From positions 1 through 13,295 of the forward strand of contig JAQGIA010000347.1 in assembly GCA_028291445.1 (NCBI GenBank): DNA of 13,295 nt, in the 5' to 3' direction. Positions within the stretch are counted from its first letter, which is position 1, and every line of letters starts with the position of its first letter. Below are positions 465 to 10,122 of this stretch, one piece after another. Both the position numbers and the translations under genes were made by a program. This stretch comes from Belnapia sp. (GTDB taxonomy: Bacteria > Pseudomonadota > Alphaproteobacteria > Acetobacterales > Acetobacteraceae). The notes beneath the pieces are model-generated. The model was given only the letters and a program-made list of their open reading frames with translations, made no database searches and was not told the origin of the DNA.

Positions 465-1565
<1,101 letters not shown>

Positions 1566-1738
1566 TGATTCCGGCCCCTGAACTATTCGCCCCGCGCGCC
1601 TTCGGCGCTTGCCGCTTCCCTATAGCCTCATTGCACGGATGTTAAGTGAGTGTTTTGCCATGATGACCCCCGGCTTGCCCTTCGCGCCGGTCGCGAGTGC
1701 GGGCACACTGGCCGGGTGCGAGCCATGAGCCTTCTCCC
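1566..1738. promoter_or_regulatory. Divergent intergenic region between dctP and hyfB
   Basis: These 173 bases separate two divergent operons and must hold both promoters unless transcription enters from outside. The core (about 1619-1665) is clearly more AT-rich than its surroundings. On the minus strand a TTAACA-like element is followed by CTATAG (near 1619-1625), but their spacing of about 14 nt is too short for a convincing sigma-70 promoter. A short hairpin (1596-1608, 5-bp stem, TTC loop) would lie in the dctP leader. No clear operator or riboswitch was seen. Confidence 0.3.
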
Positions 1739-3787
1739 GTGCTGACGGGTCTCCTCCTCGGGATCGGCCTGCTGGCCCTGCTGGCCCTGGTCGCGGCCGG
1801 ATCGGGGTGGGTCCCGGGGCAGGAGCGGCGGGCGGCGCGGGCGGTGCATGGCGGCTGCCTGGTCATCGGCCTCGGCTTCGCCGGGGTGGCGGCGGCCAAG
1901 CTGGGCATGGGTTTGCCGGAGGTGCCCATGGCGCTGCCCTTCGGCCCGCCCTGGGGCGCGGCGGTGGTGGCGCTCGATGGGCTCTCTGCCTGGTTCCTGC
2001 TGCTGCTCGGGCTGAGCGGGGCCTCGGCCTCGCTGTTCGCGCTGGGCATGCCGCCGGAGACCGGCCGGGTGCTGGTGCCCTTCCCGCTGATGCTCGCCGG
2101 GATGGCGCTGACCCTGATCGCGGCGGATGGCTTCACCCTGCTGCTGGGCTTCGAGGTGATGTCCTTCGCCTCCTGGGCGCTGATCGCGGCCGACCATGCC
2201 GAGGCGGAGAACCGGGCGGCGGCGCGGCGCTACCTGATGTTCGCGGTGCTGGCGGGGGCCTGCCTAGTCCCGGCCTTCGGCCTGCTCGCCGGGCCGGCCG
2301 GCAGCCTGGAGTTCAGCGCGCTCCGGGCCAGCCCGCCTGAGGGCTGGCGGGCGGGGGCGGTGCTGGCGCTGGGCCTGGCGGGCGCCGGGGCCAAGGCGGG
2401 GCTGGTGCCGCTGCATGCCTGGCTGCCGCCGGCCTACCGGGCGGCCTCGGGCCCGGTCTCGGCGCTGATGTCGGGGGTGATGTACAAGGTCGCGCTCTAT
2501 GTGCTGGCGCGGCTGCTGCTCGACCTCTGCGGCCCGGTGCAGCCGGCCTGGTGGGGGGTGCCGCTGGTGGTGGCCGGTGCCGTCTCCGCGCTGTTCGGCG
2601 CGCTGCGCGCCAACATGGAGGCGGAGATCCAGCCGCTGCTCGCCTGCTCGACCATCGAGAACATCGGCTTCATCACCCTGGGCTTCGGCCTCACCCTGGC
2701 CTTCCGCGGGGCGGATCTCGGACCGCTGGCGGCGCTGGCGGCCGGGGCCTCGCTGCTGCACGCGCTGAACCACGGCATCTTCAAGACCCTGCTGTTCCTG
2801 GTCGCCGGGGCGGTACGCAACGCCGCCGGCAGCCAGCGGATCGACCGGCTGGGCGGGTTGATCCATGCCATGCCGGTGACCGCCCTGGCGGCGCTGGTCG
2901 GCATCGGGGCCGCGGCCTCGCTGCCGCCGCTGGCCGGTTTCGCCAGCGAATGGCTGCTGCTGGAGGCGCTGCTGGCGGGCTGGCGGGTGAGCGACATCGT
3001 GTTCCAGGTGGTGGTGGCGGCAGCGACCGCGCTGGTCGCCATGGCGGCGGCGCTGGCGGCGGCGGCGATGGTGCGCTTCTTCGGCCTGGTCTTCCTCGGC
3101 CGGCCGCGCAGCCCGCGTGGCGCCGGAGCGCGGGAGGCGCCGTTGAAGGAACGCTGGGCGCTGCTGCTGCCGGCCGGGCTGGTCGTGCTGCTCGGGCTGT
3201 TCCCGGGGTTGCTGCTGGCCCTGGCGGCGCCGGCCATCCGGGTGCTGGCCGGGCCGGCAACCCCCACCCCGGCAACCCCCACCCCGGCACCGGCCGGTCT
3301 GGTCCTGGTGGCCGGTGAGGGCGCCTCGACCTACCTGCCGCTGGCGGTGGCCCTGCTGCTGGCGCTGGTGCTGGTCACCCTCTGGTTCCTGGTGCGGCGG
3401 CGCTCGACCGGCGCGACGCAGCGCGGGCCGGTCTGGAACGGCGGCTTCAGCGACCCGCCGCCCTTCCTGCACTTCGGCGACCCGCTGACCCAGCCGGGCG
3501 CCGCCGGCTTCGCCCAGCCGCTGCGGCAGATGCTGGGCAGCGCCCTGCTCGGGGCGCGGGAGGTGGTGATGATGCGCCCGCCGGGCGACCCGCGGCCCGG
3601 CCATTTCGCCGCCCATGCCGCCGATCCGACGCCGGGCTGGCTGCTGATGCCGCTGGCCCGACTGCGGGATGGCATCGCCGCCCGGGCCGAGCGGCTGCGC
3701 GACCTGACGATCCGTGGCTGCCTCTCGCTCAGCTTCGGGACGCTGGTCGTGCTGCTGGCGCTGCTCGCCTGGCTGGAGGCGCGGTGA
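1739..3787 (+). CDS. hyfB: HyfB-like antiporter-type proton channel subunit of a group 4 hydrogenase-related complex
   Basis: This roughly 682-aa polytopic membrane protein belongs to the NuoL/M/N-MrpA/D superfamily, closest in layout to HyfB/HycC (E. coli HyfB is about 670 aa). From a GTG at 1739 the charged residues of the proton path sit where expected: Glu139 in LLGFEVMSF, Lys219 in GAGAKAGLVPLHAWLPP, Lys250 in GVMYKVALY, and His341/His345/Lys349 in LLHALNHGIFKT. The C-terminal soluble stretch (WNGGFSDPP, then GFAQPLRQ) and last helix are typical of HycC/HyfB. I chose GTG 1739 because it opens directly into the first hydrophobic helix. GTG 1697 would add 14 polar residues, and no strong Shine-Dalgarno supports either. 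A Pro/Thr-rich linker near residue 505-520 is encoded by a tandem repeat. It is the first gene of a six-gene operon, ending 1 nt before hyfC. Confidence 0.9.
   Translation: MLTGLLLGIGLLALLALVAAGSGWVPGQERRAARAVHGGCLVIGLGFAGVAAAKLGMGLPEVPMALPFGPPWGAAVVALDGLSAWFLLLLGLSGASASLFALGMPPETGRVLVPFPLMLAGMALTLIAADGFTLLLGFEVMSFASWALIAADHAEAENRAAARRYLMFAVLAGACLVPAFGLLAGPAGSLEFSALRASPPEGWRAGAVLALGLAGAGAKAGLVPLHAWLPPAYRAASGPVSALMSGVMYKVALYVLARLLLDLCGPVQPAWWGVPLVVAGAVSALFGALRANMEAEIQPLLACSTIENIGFITLGFGLTLAFRGADLGPLAALAAGASLLHALNHGIFKTLLFLVAGAVRNAAGSQRIDRLGGLIHAMPVTALAALVGIGAAASLPPLAGFASEWLLLEALLAGWRVSDIVFQVVVAAATALVAMAAALAAAAMVRFFGLVFLGRPRSPRGAGAREAPLKERWALLLPAGLVVLLGLFPGLLLALAAPAIRVLAGPATPTPATPTPAPAGLVLVAGEGASTYLPLAVALLLALVLVTLWFLVRRRSTGATQRGPVWNGGFSDPPPFLHFGDPLTQPGAAGFAQPLRQMLGSALLGAREVVMMRPPGDPRPGHFAAHAADPTPGWLLMPLARLRDGIAARAERLRDLTIRGCLSLSFGTLVVLLALLAWLEAR
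3256..3289 (+). repeat. 15-bp tandem direct repeat inside hyfB
   Basis: Two exact copies of the 15-mer GGCAACCCCCACCCC (3256-3270 and 3271-3285) are followed by the first four bases of a third copy. In frame they encode a repeated Ala-Thr-Pro-Thr-Pro unit in the linker between the channel domain and the C-terminal part. Because the period is 15, copy-number change would not break the frame. Confidence 0.9.
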
Positions 3788-3788
3788 G

Positions 3789-4748
3789 GTGCTGACCTTC
3801 GGGTCGATCATCGTGCAGGCGCTGCACCTTGCCCTGGTGCTGGCGGCGGCGCCGCTGGTGGTCGGCCTCATCCGCTGGCTGAAGGCGCGGATGCAGGGGC
3901 GGCGCGGAGCCTCCCCGCTGCAGCCGCTGCGGGACATGCTGAAGCTGCTGCGCAAGCGCCCGGTGCTGGCCGAGAATGCCTCGATGGTCTCCGAGGTCGC
4001 GCCCTATGTGGCCTGCACCGCGAGCCTGGTGGCGCTGGCCTGCATCCCCAGCTTCTCGCGCGGGATGCTGCTGGCGCCGGTCGGCGACCTGATCCTGCTG
4101 GTCGGGCTGCTGGCGCTGGCGCGGATGGCGCTGGCCCTGGCGGGGCTGGATGTGGGAACCGGCTTCGGCGGGCTGGGCGCGGCGCGGGAGATGAGTTTTG
4201 CGGTGTTTGCCGAGCCGGCCCTGCTGCTCTGCGTGCTGACCTTCGCCATCTTGGCCGGGACCACCAACCTCGACCTCATCGCCGCGACCTTCCGCGACGG
4301 CGGGCTGGGGCTGCGGGTCTCGCTGGCGCTGGCGGCGGTGGCGATGCTGGCGGTGGCGGTCGCCGAGAATGCCCGCATCCCGGTCGACAACCCGGGGACG
4401 CATCTCGAAGTGACCATGGTGCATGAGGCGATGCTGCTGGAAAGCTCCGGCCGGCACCTGGCCCTGTGGGAATTCCAGGCGGCGCTGAAGCTGACGCTCT
4501 GGCTGGCCTTGCTCTCGGCCATCTTCGTGCCATTCGGCACGGCGCCGACGGGGGCGGGGCCGCTTGCCTGGGTCCTGGGCCTGGCGGCCTGGCTGCTGAA
4601 GCTGGGCGCGCTTTGCTTCGCGCTGGCGGTGTTCGAAAGCGCCATCGCCAAGATGCGGGTCTTCCGGGTGCCTGAATTCCTCGGTGCCGCGCTGCTGCTG
4701 GCGCTGCTGGCGGCGGCGCTGCTGTTCGTCTCGACGGGGCTGGCATGA
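3789..4748 (+). CDS. hyfC: HyfC-like (NuoH family) membrane anchor subunit
   Basis: This 319-aa integral membrane protein of the NuoH/HyfC/HycD family forms the membrane foot that connects the peripheral redox arm to the proton-pumping arm. The cytoplasmic loop RMQGRRGASPLQPLRDMLKL (near residues 34-53) is the conserved NuoH loop. The stretch ENARIPVDNPGTHLEVTM (from residue 193) carries the acidic residues thought to line the proton input path, and HEAMLLESSG follows it as in HyfC. Length matches E. coli HyfC (322 aa). The start is GTG 3789, one base after the hyfB stop, with GGAGG at 3775-3779 inside hyfB, which indicates translational coupling. Predicted helices run through the rest of the protein to residue 319. 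Confidence 0.92.
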   Translation: MLTFGSIIVQALHLALVLAAAPLVVGLIRWLKARMQGRRGASPLQPLRDMLKLLRKRPVLAENASMVSEVAPYVACTASLVALACIPSFSRGMLLAPVGDLILLVGLLALARMALALAGLDVGTGFGGLGAAREMSFAVFAEPALLLCVLTFAILAGTTNLDLIAATFRDGGLGLRVSLALAAVAMLAVAVAENARIPVDNPGTHLEVTMVHEAMLLESSGRHLALWEFQAALKLTLWLALLSAIFVPFGTAPTGAGPLAWVLGLAAWLLKLGALCFALAVFESAIAKMRVFRVPEFLGAALLLALLAAALLFVSTGLA

Positions 4749-4791: not shown

Positions 4792-5460
4792 ATGACCTTC
4801 GGGCAACTCCCCTATGATGTCGCGCATCTGTTCGGCGGCGGGATGCTGCTGCTGTCCTTCATGCTGCTCTATCAGCGGCGGGTGACGGCGGTGATCAACG
4901 GGCTGGCCATCCAGGGCGCCATCCTCGCCTGCGCCGCGGCCTGGCAGGGCGGCATGCAGTCTGCGCCGCAACTTTACCTCACGGCACTGATCGCCTTCGC
5001 CGCCAAGGCGGTGCTCATCCCGCTGGCGCTGCGGGTATTGATCCGCCGGCTGGACATGGACCGCACCGTGGATACCGCCATGGGCGTGGGGCCGAGCCTG
5101 ATCGCCGGGGTGGCGCTGGTGGCGCTGGCCATATTGGTGGTGCTGCCCATCACCACCGGGGCACGGGCCATCGCGCGGGAGGATCTGGCGCTGGCGCTCT
5201 CCGTCGTGCTGCTGGGGATGCTGATGATGATCACCCGGCGCAACGCCATCCTGCAGGTCGCCGGGCTGATGAGCATGGAGAACGGACTGATTCTCGCCGC
5301 CGTCGGCGTGGCGGGAATGCCGCTGGTGGTCGAGTTGTCGACCGCGGCGCTGGTGATGGTGGTGCTGGTGGTGGCCGGCGTCTTCGTCTTCCAGATCCGC
5401 GAGCGCTTCGACAGCGTCGACGTCTCGCTGCTCGATCCGCATCGCGGCGAAGGCCGCTGA
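4792..5460 (+). CDS. hyfE: HyfE-like (NuoK-related) membrane subunit
   Basis: This 222-aa multispanning protein is of the HyfE family (E. coli HyfE is 216 aa). The C-terminal half resembles NuoK: a hydrophobic run with MITRRNAILQVAGLMSMENG (near residues 144-165), where the Glu in the last motif matches the membrane glutamate NuoK needs for proton transfer. The tail FQIRERFDSVDVSLL is soluble. The N-terminal half has further helices and the loop QRRVTAVINGLAIQG. The start is ATG 4792, 43 nt after hyfC, with AAGGG about 11 nt upstream. This is the loosest junction of the operon. The stop codon shares its final A with the hyfF start. In the complex it should sit between the NuoH-like foot and the antiporter subunits. 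Confidence 0.9.
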   Translation: MTFGQLPYDVAHLFGGGMLLLSFMLLYQRRVTAVINGLAIQGAILACAAAWQGGMQSAPQLYLTALIAFAAKAVLIPLALRVLIRRLDMDRTVDTAMGVGPSLIAGVALVALAILVVLPITTGARAIAREDLALALSVVLLGMLMMITRRNAILQVAGLMSMENGLILAAVGVAGMPLVVELSTAALVMVVLVVAGVFVFQIRERFDSVDVSLLDPHRGEGR

Positions 5461-6953
5461 TGCCCTTCGACTTTCCCCTGCCCAGTTTTCCATTGCCATG
5501 GGCGGTGGTCTTCCTGCCCTGGGCGGGAGCGCTGCTGCTGGCCTTCCTGCCGCGGGAACGCCAGGCGACCCTGGCCAATATCGGGGTTTCCGCCGCCGGC
5601 TTCCTGCTGGCCCTGGCGCTGCTGGCGCATCCCGGCGGAATCCAGGGCTGGACCCATGTGGATGCGCTGAACACGCCGCTGGTGGTGCTGTCCTTCCTCA
5701 TCGGGCTGACCACGGCGGTGTTTTCGCATGGCGCGGTGGGCGCCGAGCGCTTCGATGCGCTGCGGCTGCGGGCCTACCACGTCGCTTTCCAGGTCTTCAT
5801 GGGGGCGCAGGCGCTGGCGCTGCTGGCCGACAACATGGGGGTGATGTGGGTGGCGATCGAGATCGCCACCATGGCCAGCGTGCTGATGGTGGCGGTGCAT
5901 GGCACGCCGCCGGCGATCGAGGCGGCCTGGAAGCTGTTCATCCTCTGCGGCGTCGGGATCACCCTGGCGCTGTTCGGCACCATCATCCTCTATCTCGCGG
6001 CGCAGCCCCTGGTCGGGCATGGCGACAGCGGCCTGTCCTGGACGGTGCTGCGCGGGCTGGCCGAGCAGGCCGATCCCGGCGTGCTGAACCTCGCCTTCGT
6101 CTTCCTGCTGGTGGGCTACGGGACCAAGGCCGGGCTGGTGCCCCTGCATAGCTGGCTGCCGGATGCCGAGGCCGAGGGGCCGATCGCGATTTCCGCCGTG
6201 CTGTCCGGCCTGCTGCTGAACGCGGCGCTGCATGCGGTGCTGCGCGCCAAGGCGATCGTCGGCGCGCATGACGGGGCGGTGGCGCCCGGCCGCTTCCTGC
6301 TGGCCTTCGGCCTCGCCTCCCTGCTGCTGGCGGCCTTCGCGCTGTGGCGCCGGCGGGATGCGCGGCGCTTCTTCGCCTGGAGCAGCATCGAGCACATGGG
6401 GCTGGCGGCGATCGCCTTCGGCCTCGGCGGCGTTGCCGGCAACCTGGCGGGGCTGCTGCACATGCTGGGCCATTCATTGTGCAAATCGGCGGTGTTCTTC
6501 GGCCTGGGCGCCGCGGTGCGGCTGCGCGGGTCGCAGAAGACCGCCGATATCGCCGGGCTCTGCGCCTCGCATCCCGGGCTCGGCTGGGCGCTGGCCATCG
6601 CCATCGCGGCGGTGGCGGGGCTGCCGCCCTTCAGCCTCTTCGCCAGCGAATTCCTGCTGTTGACCGAGGTGGCGGCGCGGCATGCCTGGCTGATCCTGCC
6701 GCTCGGCATCGGGCTGCTGACGGCGACGGTGGCGAAGCTCCATATCCTGCAGGCGCTGTGCCTCGGCGACCCAACGCCGGATGCGCCGAGGGACGCCGCA
6801 TCAGGGGGCGCGACCGGGGCGGATTGGTTCACCCGGGATTGGTTCACCCTGGGGCCGGTCTGGCTGCATCTGGCGCTGGCGCTGCTGCTGGGCGCGGCTT
6901 TGCCGGGGCCGCTGGCCATGCTGCTCGGGCAGGCGGCGAGGATCCCGGGATGA
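5460..6953 (+). CDS. hyfF: HyfF-like antiporter-type proton channel subunit
   Basis: This 497-aa second antiporter-like subunit, of the HyfF/NuoN/MrpD type, is a little shorter than E. coli HyfF (526 aa). Key residues are in place: Glu134 in MWVAIEIATM, Lys158 in EAAWKLFILCG, Lys223 in GYGTKAGLVPLHSWLP and the His/Lys helix HMLGHSLCKSAVFFG. The segment LRGSQKTADIAGL follows as in HyfF. With hyfB it gives the complex two potential proton-translocating channels. It starts at ATG 5460, overlapping the hyfE stop by one base, and its stop overlaps the hyfG start in ATGA. A short tandem duplication (DWFTRDWFT) sits in a loop before the last helix. Confidence 0.92.
   Translation: MPFDFPLPSFPLPWAVVFLPWAGALLLAFLPRERQATLANIGVSAAGFLLALALLAHPGGIQGWTHVDALNTPLVVLSFLIGLTTAVFSHGAVGAERFDALRLRAYHVAFQVFMGAQALALLADNMGVMWVAIEIATMASVLMVAVHGTPPAIEAAWKLFILCGVGITLALFGTIILYLAAQPLVGHGDSGLSWTVLRGLAEQADPGVLNLAFVFLLVGYGTKAGLVPLHSWLPDAEAEGPIAISAVLSGLLLNAALHAVLRAKAIVGAHDGAVAPGRFLLAFGLASLLLAAFALWRRRDARRFFAWSSIEHMGLAAIAFGLGGVAGNLAGLLHMLGHSLCKSAVFFGLGAAVRLRGSQKTADIAGLCASHPGLGWALAIAIAAVAGLPPFSLFASEFLLLTEVAARHAWLILPLGIGLLTATVAKLHILQALCLGDPTPDAPRDAASGGATGADWFTRDWFTLGPVWLHLALALLLGAALPGPLAMLLGQAARIPG
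6821..6849 (+). repeat. Period-15 tandem repeat inside hyfF
   Basis: The 14-mer GGATTGGTTCACCC occurs at 6821-6834 and again at 6836-6849, a 15-nt period. In frame it duplicates Asp-Trp-Phe-Thr in the loop before the final membrane helix and leaves the frame intact. Confidence 0.85.
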
Positions 6954-8473
6954 GCCTGCTGAGCCTGATCCGGCATGGCCAGGACCAGGGCTGCCGGCCG
7001 CATCCGCGCCACCTGCTGGACCACGGCCAATGGAGCGCCATGGCCGAGGCGCTGGCGGCCGATCCCACGGTGGACCTCCTCGCGCTATGGGCGGAGCCCG
7101 GCGTGGTGCATGCCTGCCTGCTGGCGGAAGGCGGCTGCATCATCGCCTCCTGTGCCGCGCCGGACGGGCGCTACCGGGCGCTGTCGCCGGTCCGGCCCGG
7201 GGCGGTGCGCTTCGAGCGGATGGTGGGCGACCTCTGGGGCCTGGTGGCGGATGGGGCGCTGGATGCGCGGCCCTGGCTCGACCATGGCCGTTGGCCGCTG
7301 GTCGGGCCGCTGGCGCTGAAGCCGGCGGCCAATGCGCTGCCGCCGCAGCAGCCGCAATTCCTGACGGTCGAGGGCGAGGGGGTGCACCAGATCGCGGTCG
7401 GGCCGGTGCATGCCGGCATCATCGAGCCGGGGCATTTCCGCCTCCATGTCCAGGGCGAGACGGTCATCCGGCTGGAGGAACGCCTGGGCTACCTGCACAA
7501 GGGCAGCATCGGGCTGATGCTGGGCAAGCCGGCCCGGGTCGCGGCGCGCTTCGCCGGCCGGCTGTCCGGCGATTCCACCGTGGCGCATGCCTGGGCCTTC
7601 GCCCAGGCGGTCGAGGCCGCGCTCGGCATCGTGCCGCCGCCGCGGGCGCTGGCGTTGCGCGGGGTGATGGCGGAGCTGGAGCGGCTGCACAACCATCTGA
7701 ACGACTGGGGCAGCATCTGCAACGATGCCGCCTTCGTCTGGCCGCATGCCAGGGCCGGGGTGCTGCGCGAAGGCGTGCTGCGCGCCGCCGATGCGGCCTT
7801 CGGCCATCGGCTGATGATGGACCGGGTGGTGCCCGGCGGCGTCACCGACGATCTGCGGCCGGGCGGGGCCGAGGCCATCGCCGCGGCGCTGGCGCTGGTC
7901 GAGGCCGAGCTGCCGGTGCTCGGCGCGATCTACGACAGCCATGCCAGCCTGCAGGACCGGGTGGTGGGCACCGGCATCCTCGCCCCCGCGCTGGCCGCCA
8001 GCTTCGCCGCGGGGGGGATCGTCGGCCGCGCCTCGGGCCGCGGCTTCGATGCACGGCGCAGCCCTGGCTATGCGCCCTACGCGGGGGAGGCGGTGCCTGG
8101 GCTGGCCGCCCCTGGAATGGCGGCGGGCGATGTCGATGCCCGCGCCCGGCTGCGGCTGGCCGAGGCGGCGGAGAGCATCCGGCTGCTCGGCCTGCTGCTG
8201 GCGCGGCTGCCGCCGGGCACCGCCCCGGCGGAGCTGGCCGTGCCGCTGCCGCAGCGTGGCGGGGAGGGGCTCGGGCTGGTCGAGGGGTTCCGCGGCGAAT
8301 GCCTGCATTGGGTGGCGCTCGACGATGGCGGGCTGGTGCGGGGGGTGTTTCCGCGCGACCCGTCCTGGCTGCAATGGCCGCTGCTGGAAGCCGCGGTCGA
8401 GGGCAACATCGTCGCCGACTTCCCCATCATCAACAAAAGCTTCAACTGTTCCTACAGCGGGGTCGATCTGTGA
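6950..8473 (+). CDS. hyfG: HyfG-like large subunit (NuoC-NuoD type) lacking all [NiFe] ligand cysteines
   Basis: This 507-aa protein combines a NuoC-like N-terminal part (about 1-120) with a group 4 large-subunit domain (about 135-507), as in HyfG/HycE. Family stretches are clear: VHQIAVGPVHAGIIEPGHFR (from residue 145), EERLGYLHKGS (176-186) and MAELERLHNHLNDWGSIC (240-257). The first metal-binding motif of hydrogenases, RxCGxCxxxH, reads RLSGDSTVAH (204-213), so both cysteines are serine (206 and 209). The second, DPCxxC, aligns with NCSYSG (499-504), so its ligands are Ser501 and Gly504; a lone Cys500 is one place off. The protein ends three residues later without a processing tail. By family knowledge this cannot hold a normal NiFe site, so hydrogenase activity is not expected. 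Start overlaps the hyfF stop (ATGA). Confidence 0.9.
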   Translation: MSLLSLIRHGQDQGCRPHPRHLLDHGQWSAMAEALAADPTVDLLALWAEPGVVHACLLAEGGCIIASCAAPDGRYRALSPVRPGAVRFERMVGDLWGLVADGALDARPWLDHGRWPLVGPLALKPAANALPPQQPQFLTVEGEGVHQIAVGPVHAGIIEPGHFRLHVQGETVIRLEERLGYLHKGSIGLMLGKPARVAARFAGRLSGDSTVAHAWAFAQAVEAALGIVPPPRALALRGVMAELERLHNHLNDWGSICNDAAFVWPHARAGVLREGVLRAADAAFGHRLMMDRVVPGGVTDDLRPGGAEAIAAALALVEAELPVLGAIYDSHASLQDRVVGTGILAPALAASFAAGGIVGRASGRGFDARRSPGYAPYAGEAVPGLAAPGMAAGDVDARARLRLAEAAESIRLLGLLLARLPPGTAPAELAVPLPQRGGEGLGLVEGFRGECLHWVALDDGGLVRGVFPRDPSWLQWPLLEAAVEGNIVADFPIINKSFNCSYSGVDL

Positions 8474-9021
8474 TGCAGCCGCTGAAGCGCCTGCTATGGC
8501 CGCGGCTGGCCCGTGGCCTGGTTACCCCGCCGATCACCGATCCGCCGCCGGTGGTGCCGGACGCGGTGGTGCAGGCGCTGGTCGAGCGGCTGGAGGAAGC
8601 CGGCCAGGCCCGGCTCGGCCGCAGCCTCGCCATCCGCCAGGTCGATGCCGGGTCCTGCAACGGCTGCGAGCTGGAAATCAATGCGCTGCAATCCGTGGTC
8701 TATGACCTGGAGCGCTTCGGCCTGCGCTTCGTCGCCAGCCCGCGCCATGCCGACGTGCTGCTGGTGACCGGCCCGCTGACGCGGAACATGCGCGAGGCGC
8801 TGGAGCGTACCCTGGCCTGCACGCCGGAGCCGCGCTGGGTGGTGGCGGTCGGCGATTGCGCGGTGGATGGGGGGCTGTTCCGCGGCAGCTATGCGGTGGA
8901 GGGCGGCATCGCCGCGGCCTTGACGGTGGATCTGGTGATCCCGGGCTGCCCGCCGACGCCGACGCAATTGCTGGAAGGGCTGCTGGCGCTGCTGGCGGCG
9001 CAGACCAGGCCGCGGCGCTGA
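8473..9021 (+). CDS. hyfI: HyfI-like (NuoB family) small subunit with complete [4Fe-4S] site
   Basis: This 182-aa soluble electron-transfer subunit is homologous to NuoB/HycG/HyfI. All four cysteines of the N2-type [4Fe-4S] cluster are present: Cys62 and Cys65 in DAGSCNGCELEI, Cys129 in VGDCA and Cys159 in IPGCPPTP. Redox chemistry is therefore retained even though the partner large subunit has lost its metal site. It is shorter than E. coli HyfI (about 250 aa), lacking the C-terminal extension, and closer to NuoB in size. The N-terminus is proline-rich and basic (MQPLKRLLWPRLARG), like the membrane-contacting start of NuoB proteins. ATG 8473 shares its A with the hyfG stop. It is the last gene of the operon; no plus-strand T-tract terminator follows. 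Confidence 0.92.
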   Translation: MQPLKRLLWPRLARGLVTPPITDPPPVVPDAVVQALVERLEEAGQARLGRSLAIRQVDAGSCNGCELEINALQSVVYDLERFGLRFVASPRHADVLLVTGPLTRNMREALERTLACTPEPRWVVAVGDCAVDGGLFRGSYAVEGGIAAALTVDLVIPGCPPTPTQLLEGLLALLAAQTRPRR

Positions 9022-9228: not shown

Positions 9229-9411
9229 GCCGCCTCTACGGAAGGTGTGAGCGGGCTTAACTTGCGGCAATGCGGCGGCGCGAGGCGCTTATTGTTGCGG
9301 TGAATGGTGGCGATGGCCCGGGGGCATGGGACATCGGGCGGGCGGCATCCTATCTGGGTGTCATCCAGCCGGCCCCATCAGGCCGGCGCCTTTGCAGACA
9401 GGAGCGATCCG
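9229..9411. promoter_or_regulatory. Divergent intergenic region between the small minus-strand gene and pirin
   Basis: Promoters for both flanking genes should lie in these 183 bases; no convincing sigma-70 pair was found for either. A perfect 7-bp inverted repeat GCCGGCC/GGCCGGC with a CCATCA loop (9368-9387) would form a hairpin in the pirin leader just upstream of the AGGAG ribosome site (9400-9404). Confidence 0.3.
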
Positions 9412-10122
9412 ATGATCGATATCCGCCCTTTCGACACCCTCGGCGGTGCCAACCATGGCTGGCTGAAGGCCAAGCACCACTTCTCCTTCGCCGGCTACCA
9501 TGATGCCGCCCGGATGAACTGGGGCCGGCTGCGCGTCTGGAACGACGACGAGATCGCCGCCGGCACCGGCTTCGACCCGCATCCGCACCGCGACATGGAA
9601 ATCATCACCTATGTCCGGGACGGCGCGATCACCCACAAGGACAACCTCGGCAACGAGGGCCGCACCGAGGCGGGCGACGTGCAGATCATGTCGGCCGGCA
9701 CGGGGGTGGTGCATAGCGAGTACAATCTGGAGCCGGAGACGACCCGGATCTTCCAGATCTGGATCATGCCGGACCGCCGCGGCGCCAAGCCGAATTGGGG
9801 GGCCAAGGCCTTCCCGAAGGAGCAGCGCGAGGCGGGCTTCGAGGTGCTGGCCAGCGGCCGGGCGCAGGATGCGGCAAGTGGCGCGCTGCCGCTGAACGTG
9901 GATGGCGCGGTGCTGGCGGCGAGCCTGAAATCCGGCCCGACCCTGCGCCAGCCGCTGGGCGAGGGCCGCGCCGCCTATCTGGTGCCGGCCAAGGGGGCGG
10001 TCACGGTGAATGGCGTGGCGCTCGGCACAAGGGACGGGGCGGGCATCCGGGATGAGGCGGTGATGGAGATCACCGCGACCGAGGATGCGGAACTGGTGCT
10101 GGTCGAGGTCGCGGCGGAATAG
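9412..10122 (+). CDS. Pirin family protein (YhaK-like bicupin)
   Basis: This 236-aa cytoplasmic protein is of the pirin family, which are bicupins binding one metal; some degrade quercetin and others act as redox sensors. Metal ligands are visible: His57 and His59 in FDPHPHRDMEIITYV, and His101 and Glu103 in SAGTGVVHSEYN, matching the three His and one Glu of human pirin. Length equals that of the short bacterial pirins such as E. coli YhaK (233 aa). The second cupin domain (about 125-236) has no metal ligands, as usual. ATG 9412 was chosen over upstream starts because AGGAG lies 7 nt before it and MIDIRPFD is a normal pirin N-terminus. Substrate is unknown. The 3' end overlaps the convergent hydrolase gene by 53 nt. 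Confidence 0.93.
   Translation: MIDIRPFDTLGGANHGWLKAKHHFSFAGYHDAARMNWGRLRVWNDDEIAAGTGFDPHPHRDMEIITYVRDGAITHKDNLGNEGRTEAGDVQIMSAGTGVVHSEYNLEPETTRIFQIWIMPDRRGAKPNWGAKAFPKEQREAGFEVLASGRAQDAASGALPLNVDGAVLAASLKSGPTLRQPLGEGRAAYLVPAKGAVTVNGVALGTRDGAGIRDEAVMEITATEDAELVLVEVAAE

Follow-up and report, generated by a model that had tools for sequence, protein, structure and literature searches.

The operon analysed here would encode a complex-I-like assembly of six subunits which appears, judged from its sequence, to have retained its electron-entry cluster and pump residues while the large subunit lost all four cysteine ligands of the [NiFe] site. By its gene set, the missing ligands and published descriptions, the complex classifies as Ehr type (energy-converting hydrogenase-related), the proteins compared being other than those published under the name EhrL, and with such a large subunit it could not be a [NiFe] hydrogenase. 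According to our main reading, to which we assign a probability of roughly 0.55, a donor would pass electrons via the small subunit to a rebuilt pocket in the large subunit, with turnover coupled to the movement of H+ or Na+. Ehr complexes without [NiFe] ligands are already known; our data add a residue-level picture and a family of relatives that carries four cysteines.

The window, by which we mean the whole stretch of 13,295 nucleotides, derives from a Belnapia genome that is 75% complete and split into 687 contigs. It carries an intact operon of six tightly packed genes on the plus strand in the order B-C-E-F-G-I: i) a hyfB-like antiporter subunit (1697..3787, start codon uncertain; Pfam Proton_antipo_M, 1.5e-44), whose nearest NCBIfam family, 'hydrogenase 4 subunit B', is matched under the family cut-off, ii) a hyfC/NuoH-like membrane subunit (~3789..4748, start inferred; Pfam NADHdh, 1.4e-35), iii) a hyfE-like membrane subunit (~4792..5460, start inferred), which matched no Pfam family and, under the cut-off, the NCBIfam family 'hydrogenase 4 membrane subunit' (1.8e-20), iv) a hyfF-like antiporter subunit (5460..6953; Pfam Proton_antipo_M, 1.4e-43; NCBIfam 'hydrogenase 4 subunit F', 1.3e-153, under cut-off), v) a hyfG-like large subunit of EhrL type with 507 amino acids (6950..8473), devoid of [NiFe] ligands and of a C-terminal tail, and vi) a hyfI/NuoB-like small subunit of EhrS type (8473..9021; Pfam Oxidored_q6, 4.2e-32), for which one [4Fe-4S] cluster is expected. 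The preliminary description had opened its coordinate range at 7562, a position that only approximates the start of the first ligand motif; its account of an intact gene overlapping its neighbours is confirmed by ATGA overlaps with hyfF (stop codon 6951-6953) and hyfI (ATG at 8473). Upstream of the operon and divergent from B lies a TRAP transporter solute-binding gene (465-1565, minus strand), and a pirin-like gene (9397-10122) follows downstream.

In place of the first ligand motif stands RLSGDSTVAH (residues 204-213; 7559..7588, plus strand, with the R204 codon at 7559), and in place of the second, running up to the C-terminus, NCSYSGVDL (residues 499-507; 8444..8470, plus strand); both lack the cysteines of active enzymes. 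HMMER comparison with Escherichia coli HycE and a MAFFT alignment agree in pairing HycE C241, C244, C531 and C534 with S206, S209, S501 and G504, so that the reported loss of all four ligands holds, with Ser, Ser, Ser and Gly in their place. Among the best 120 matches listed (64-100% identity, query included), none has Cys at any of the four positions: the first is Ser in all 120, the second Ser in 100, Thr in 17 and Ala in 3, the third Ser in 116 and Ala or Thr in 2 each, and the fourth Gly in all 120. The one exception, a divergent relative (L121), has Cys at the first position only. Ligand loss is a trait of the whole clade and not a peculiarity of one genome. The structure model of the large subunit (pLDDT 92.8) has HycE as its closest solved fold, and its chain stops three residues past the site of the fourth ligand, whereas the chains of HyfG and HycE continue there into a long tail. 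Large subunits with such a tail are cut by a maturation protease, as is also general knowledge (PMC7654741). Absence of the tail alone does not exclude a group 4 hydrogenase, because the four-cysteine relatives are tail-less as well. Cys500, which had been considered a possible leftover ligand, is Cys in 108 of the best 120 matches listed and in 60 of 71 Ehr rows, the other 11 having Ala, Gly, Pro or Leu. Since its counterpart in DPCxxC is the Pro, and since this position is Leu in 7/7 four-cysteine relatives, we rejected it as a leftover ligand.

The residues around these positions were compared in 71 Ehr rows, hand-picked for spread and excluding L121 (Cys at the first position) and L050 (Ala at the third). 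The preliminary description had the residues neighbouring the lost ligands preserved, which is correct in part: an Asp near the C-terminus is indeed conserved, but it is D506 and not the Asp with which the second motif begins, and His213 varies (35 His, 30 Tyr, 6 others). At the second-motif Asp, the canopy residue D529 of HycE, Asn499 stands in 71/71 rows. D208, D470, E480, K496 and N499 are invariant (71/71); by alignment, D208, K496 and N499 map to the former active site or next to it, and D470 and E480 may belong to the pocket as well. Position 504 is Gly throughout (71/71). The proton-path residues R448, H249, E405 and R360 are kept in all 71 rows and E159 in 70. As the canopy residue is uniformly Asn and D208, D470, E480 and K496 do not vary, the Ehr pocket looks rebuilt rather than decayed. 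The quinone His and Tyr of complex I, placed by alignment from the complex I numbering, are absent from the Ehr pocket, which has Ile158 and Gly207 there in 70/71 rows each. Because these two residues are missing and the canopy Asp is an Asn, quinone reduction as in complex I would be unlikely; mutating canopy residues is described to impair complex I (PMC9474812).

Relatives of the hyfG-like gene evolve under purifying selection. Of 15 close pairs compared, 14 have a dN/dS between 0.07 and 0.32, the fifteenth pair being identical, and close pairs of F and I reach 0.32 and 0.35, respectively. This is in line with the earlier view that the gene shows no decay.

The small subunit, located in 170 of 180 loci, retains its cluster cysteines almost without exception: Cys 62, 65, 129 and 159 are found in 136, 136, 136 and 135 of 136 Ehr rows. 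The cluster motif begins with CxxC, unlike the consecutive cysteines of complex I, which are likewise missing from membrane-bound hydrogenases according to the available account (PMC9474812). For the membrane subunits, only near-full-length proteins entered the residue counts (121 B, 138 F and 128 C rows), and the named conserved residues of the B and F antiporter subunits and of the NuoH-like subunit, its Glu included, are kept at 97.8-100%. These comprise E153 (121/121), K233 (120/121), K264 (119/121) and E418 (119/121) in the hyfB-like, and E134 (138/138), K223 (136/138) and E397 (135/138) in the hyfF-like protein. The NuoH-like loop PxDxxxTHLExTMxHE occurs in 126/131 Ehr C proteins and in a four-cysteine locus (L127), and differs in HyfC/HycD.

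To place the large subunit we used a first tree of 81 rows with the ligand columns excluded. Its Ehr set consisted of 32 of the 71 alignment rows plus L121, L109 and L050 (L109 being the same gene as row L082); L233 was omitted because it was in the wrong frame, and L235, judged by its protein end, was assigned to the acetic type described below instead of Nuo. All Ehr rows, with the acetic-type rows nested inside, form one clade (100/99). This clade groups at 97/96 with a four-cysteine family and with another Cys-less family, the formate type, while Hyf/Hyc and Nuo fall elsewhere. This topology contradicts the proposed placement halfway from group 4 hydrogenases to complex I, as do the CxxC start of the cluster motif and the Ile and Gly at the quinone His and Tyr. 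Since one family of relatives carries the complete set of cysteines, Ehr would belong on the hydrogenase side and not midway to complex I; strictly taken, it does not fall inside a clade of active [NiFe] hydrogenases, because the four-cysteine family that it adjoins is of unproven activity. The four-cysteine and formate-type Cys-less rows join at 97/82 in the first tree and at 70/24 in a second tree of 59 rows, from which the 20 acetic-type rows, L050 and L142 were excluded for their long branches. A constraint that unites every Cys-less row lowers the likelihood of the first tree by only 1.8 log units (AU p 0.43), and in the second the AU p values are 0.31 for Ehr and formate-type rows together and 0.42 for four-cysteine and Ehr rows together, so the trees are compatible with one loss of the ligands as well as with two. 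The formate-type family (L128, L129, L132, L135, L147, L148) has Gly and not Asn at the canopy position, and the pocket may thus have been rebuilt twice.

The four-cysteine family comprises L127:8101-9714 and 120 relatives listed (P0121-P0240), the few named ones being Betaproteobacteria and Acidobacteria MAGs. The first motif was matched by pattern in 117 of these 120, with 3 unmatched, and all 120 end in CYSCTDR. These proteins keep all four ligand cysteines and have in common with Ehr the NKSF stretch, the NuoH-like loop (in L127) and the lack of a cleavable tail. Because L127 carries B, C, E, F, G and I in one locus (F as two overlapping ORFs) and the family is tail-less, both the arrangement in six genes and the absence of a tail may predate ligand loss. 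Where NCBI names the large subunits of this family, they are labelled 'NADH-quinone oxidoreductase subunit C'.

A further 20 loci, from genomes of the window's own family, form the fast-evolving acetic type (L054-L060, L126, L130, L131, L136-L140, L143-L146, L149), nested in the Ehr clade (100/97). Loci checked with a full set (e.g. L056, L057, L060, L131) have six ORFs around G in the same order, and the EhrS cluster cysteines are mostly kept (14-16 of 17 rows). The antiporter TM7-Lys motif was found in 0/20 of these loci compared with 121/143 Ehr loci, the Glu/Lys positions are changed in six aligned B proteins, and a loose NuoH-loop pattern was matched, in any frame, in 3/20. With pN/pS of 0.26-0.46 for G in four pairs, the acetic type possibly represents complex-I-like assemblies that lost the pump too. 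As these operons have the genes and no recognisable pump motif, the gene set by itself does not prove pumping.

Geobacter ehrABCDLS was reportedly described in 2005, and we take Rv0082-Rv0087 to be a similar six-gene set. Ehr complexes without CxxC motifs are in print, with no function assigned in the relevant passages (PMC6349859, PMC10284858, PMC10432482, PMC4378227), and like the complex described here they combine a large subunit lacking CxxC with HyfB/C/E/F-like membrane subunits and a small subunit, a kinship by gene set and description only. Clusters named 'hyfBCEFGI' are mentioned for Nitrospira (PMC5596200) and for vent Epsilonproteobacteria (PMC3958643). In Acidithiobacillus, hyfBCEFG adjoins a carbonic anhydrase gene (PMC3826726), and one account gives a non-hydrogenase call by HydDB for the cluster (PMC7735108). 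For hyfBCEFGI of Cupriavidus metallidurans CH34, a role in lithotrophic growth was judged very unlikely in the authors' own statement (PMC2864759). All six CH34 subunits match those of the window; the large subunit shares 48% identity across 436 residues and has the motifs RVSGDSTVAY and NKSFNLSYAGHDL. It differs by Leu at Cys500, Tyr at His213 and other flanking genes. Compared with HycE and HyfG of E. coli, the window's protein lacks the four ligands, the canopy Asp and the C-terminal tail, and counterparts of E. coli HyfA, HyfD, HyfH and HyfJ are missing from the operon. Complex I (NuoCD/NuoD, NuoB, NuoH) has the fold, the E-channel and the antiporter residues in common with Ehr; unlike complex I, Ehr lacks the quinone His and Tyr, has a hydrogenase-type cluster motif, and its operon includes neither NuoI nor an NADH module.

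In the family of the window's genome, 87 of 150 genomes have a large-subunit match at E <= 1e-80, the broader tally of 147 genomes including NuoD hits. At the same threshold, 57 of 299 genomes sampled from the Pseudomonadota match, the window's genome included. Among plasmid records 218 match, 79 of them across at least 80% of the query, and the weak ones may be NuoD. The best named matches are Belnapia, Roseomonas, Siccirubricoccus and Paracraurococcus, presumably all Acetobacteraceae. For the neighbourhoods, 143 loci were clustered, some of which come from the same organism (L205 and L053, for instance, have identical G, F and I); those with a name are mostly Alphaproteobacteria. The exact order B-C-E-F-G-I occurs in 93 loci, BCEFG in 19 and one gene between G and I in 9; the remainder are cut at contig ends or have a gene missed or doubled in gene calling. 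In L025, L026, L027, L030, L031, L032, L036 and L150 the gene between G and I is small and resembles a glyoxalase, and in seven loci (L106, L112-L115, L119, L120), mostly of gammaproteobacterial type, an ORF upstream of B resembles a regulator with a helix-turn-helix start. Many Acetobacteraceae loci have a TRAP transporter gene set that diverges from B (in clusters of 19, 16 and 8 loci), and the two largest clusters of unlinked neighbours, named by resemblance, are TRAP-transporter-like small and large subunits (19 and 16 loci). The clustering of the 143 loci revealed no recurrent redox enzyme or partner gene beside the operon. An ORF with two ferredoxin motifs lies within or adjoining the operon in 0/143 loci, so that no relay of HyfH/HycF or NuoI type is encoded there, and farther off in three, the window among them. 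In the window, the C-terminal part of a 4Fe-4S dicluster protein runs off the contig end (12758-13294, minus strand), outside the operon.

For the mechanism, we propose that a soluble low-potential donor of the ferredoxin or flavodoxin class, encoded outside the operon, would dock on EhrS and pass on its electrons directly; direct transfer is suggested because no NuoI/HyfH-type relay is encoded. The electrons would reach a substrate in the rebuilt pocket, in or next to which the alignment places D208, K496 and N499. Protonation via R448/H249/E405/R360 and E159 would then drive the E-channel and the antiporter subunits, coupling turnover to H+ or Na+ movement. That the complex works as a redox-linked ion pump in the first place seems, on present sequence data, rather probable. 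The substrate would most likely be neither H2 nor a quinone bound as in complex I, with a soluble carrier as donor, and the acceptor most likely a quinone, bound through residues that complex I does not use for this, or else some other small molecule in oxidised form. Naming quinone as the partner is a tentative step. A reverse mode may also occur, with the ion gradient pushing electrons uphill, although it is unlikely to be the main direction. We regard as equally tentative the wider idea that the [NiFe] pocket was rebuilt (D208, N499, K496, perhaps D470 and E480) along the inherited proton path for use with a soluble carrier and no relay, making Ehr a third working branch of the superfamily.

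Partner enzymes were surveyed in the 150 family genomes as raw counts that ignore phylogeny and completeness. Formate dehydrogenase (FDH) alpha above cut-off is present in 57 of the 87 Ehr-bearing genomes vs 21 of the 63 others, and HypD in 22/87 vs 4/63. Both are commoner with Ehr and therefore neither is a clean negative, yet neither is needed: FDH alpha is absent above cut-off from 30 of the 87, among them the window's incomplete genome, and HypD from 65, some of which are listed as 100% complete (G010, G016, G044, G095). HypD gave no match in the window's genome, at its 75% completeness. CO dehydrogenase was rejected as a family-wide partner, as in these raw counts it exceeds the cut-off in 6/150 genomes, three with and three without Ehr.

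The co-occurrence of FDH bears on the alternative of an FDH-Ehr complex, in which formate dehydrogenase would bind to the Ehr core and deliver formate electrons to quinone or another acceptor. Such an arrangement is proposed in print for Margulisbacteria and others (PMC6349859), and one study reports higher amounts of Geobacter Ehr subunits on formate than under conditions that included hydrogen (PMC7894505). In the related formate-type family, L128 (gene order C-E-F-G-I-B) adjoins FDH- and NuoEF-like genes. Against this stand the 30 Ehr-bearing genomes with no FDH alpha above cut-off, the absence of a recurring FDH-like neighbour in the 143 loci and the lack of a HyfA/HycB- or HyfH-type relay in the operon. 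Despite some co-occurrence and the support in print, the formate-linked reading fails as a general rule here, and we consider it improbable. A little less probable again is a non-redox function, in which a small ligand in the pocket would gate ion flow via the antiporter subunits and the cluster would be structural or a sensor. It would account for the finding that donor, relay and partner are not encoded nearby in the 143 loci and that the catalytic signatures of both hydrogenase and complex I are gone, but not for four cluster cysteines and proton-path residues that are almost invariant. An unusual metal site with Ser, Asp208 and Cys500 as ligands, all at or next to former ligand positions, is very improbable given the replacement of Cys500 in 11/71 rows, the uniform Gly504 and the many Ehr-bearing genomes with no HypD above cut-off. 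Finally, a degraded, functionless hydrogenase operon, to which the loss of all four ligands might point, is hardly credible, and a degenerate gene was rejected, in view of the dN/dS values of the 14 close pairs, the intact, overlapping genes, the spread over 87 of 150 family genomes and the new invariant residues.

Should the pocket indeed have been rebuilt for a soluble carrier with no relay, Ehr would rank with hydrogenases and quinone reductases as the third functional branch within the complex I superfamily, acting on a substrate that nobody has thought of so far. Ehr-type operons are common and offer a natural test of how redox chemistry is coupled to proton pumping, since they keep the machinery but lack its metal site. 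Directed mutant and structure work can now start from the four-cysteine relative, the replacement of the canopy Asp by Asn and the short list of invariant residues. In public databases, relatives of the large subunit carry labels such as hydrogenase, 'hydrogenase expression protein HypE' or 'NADH-quinone oxidoreductase subunit C' and are thus widely mislabelled.
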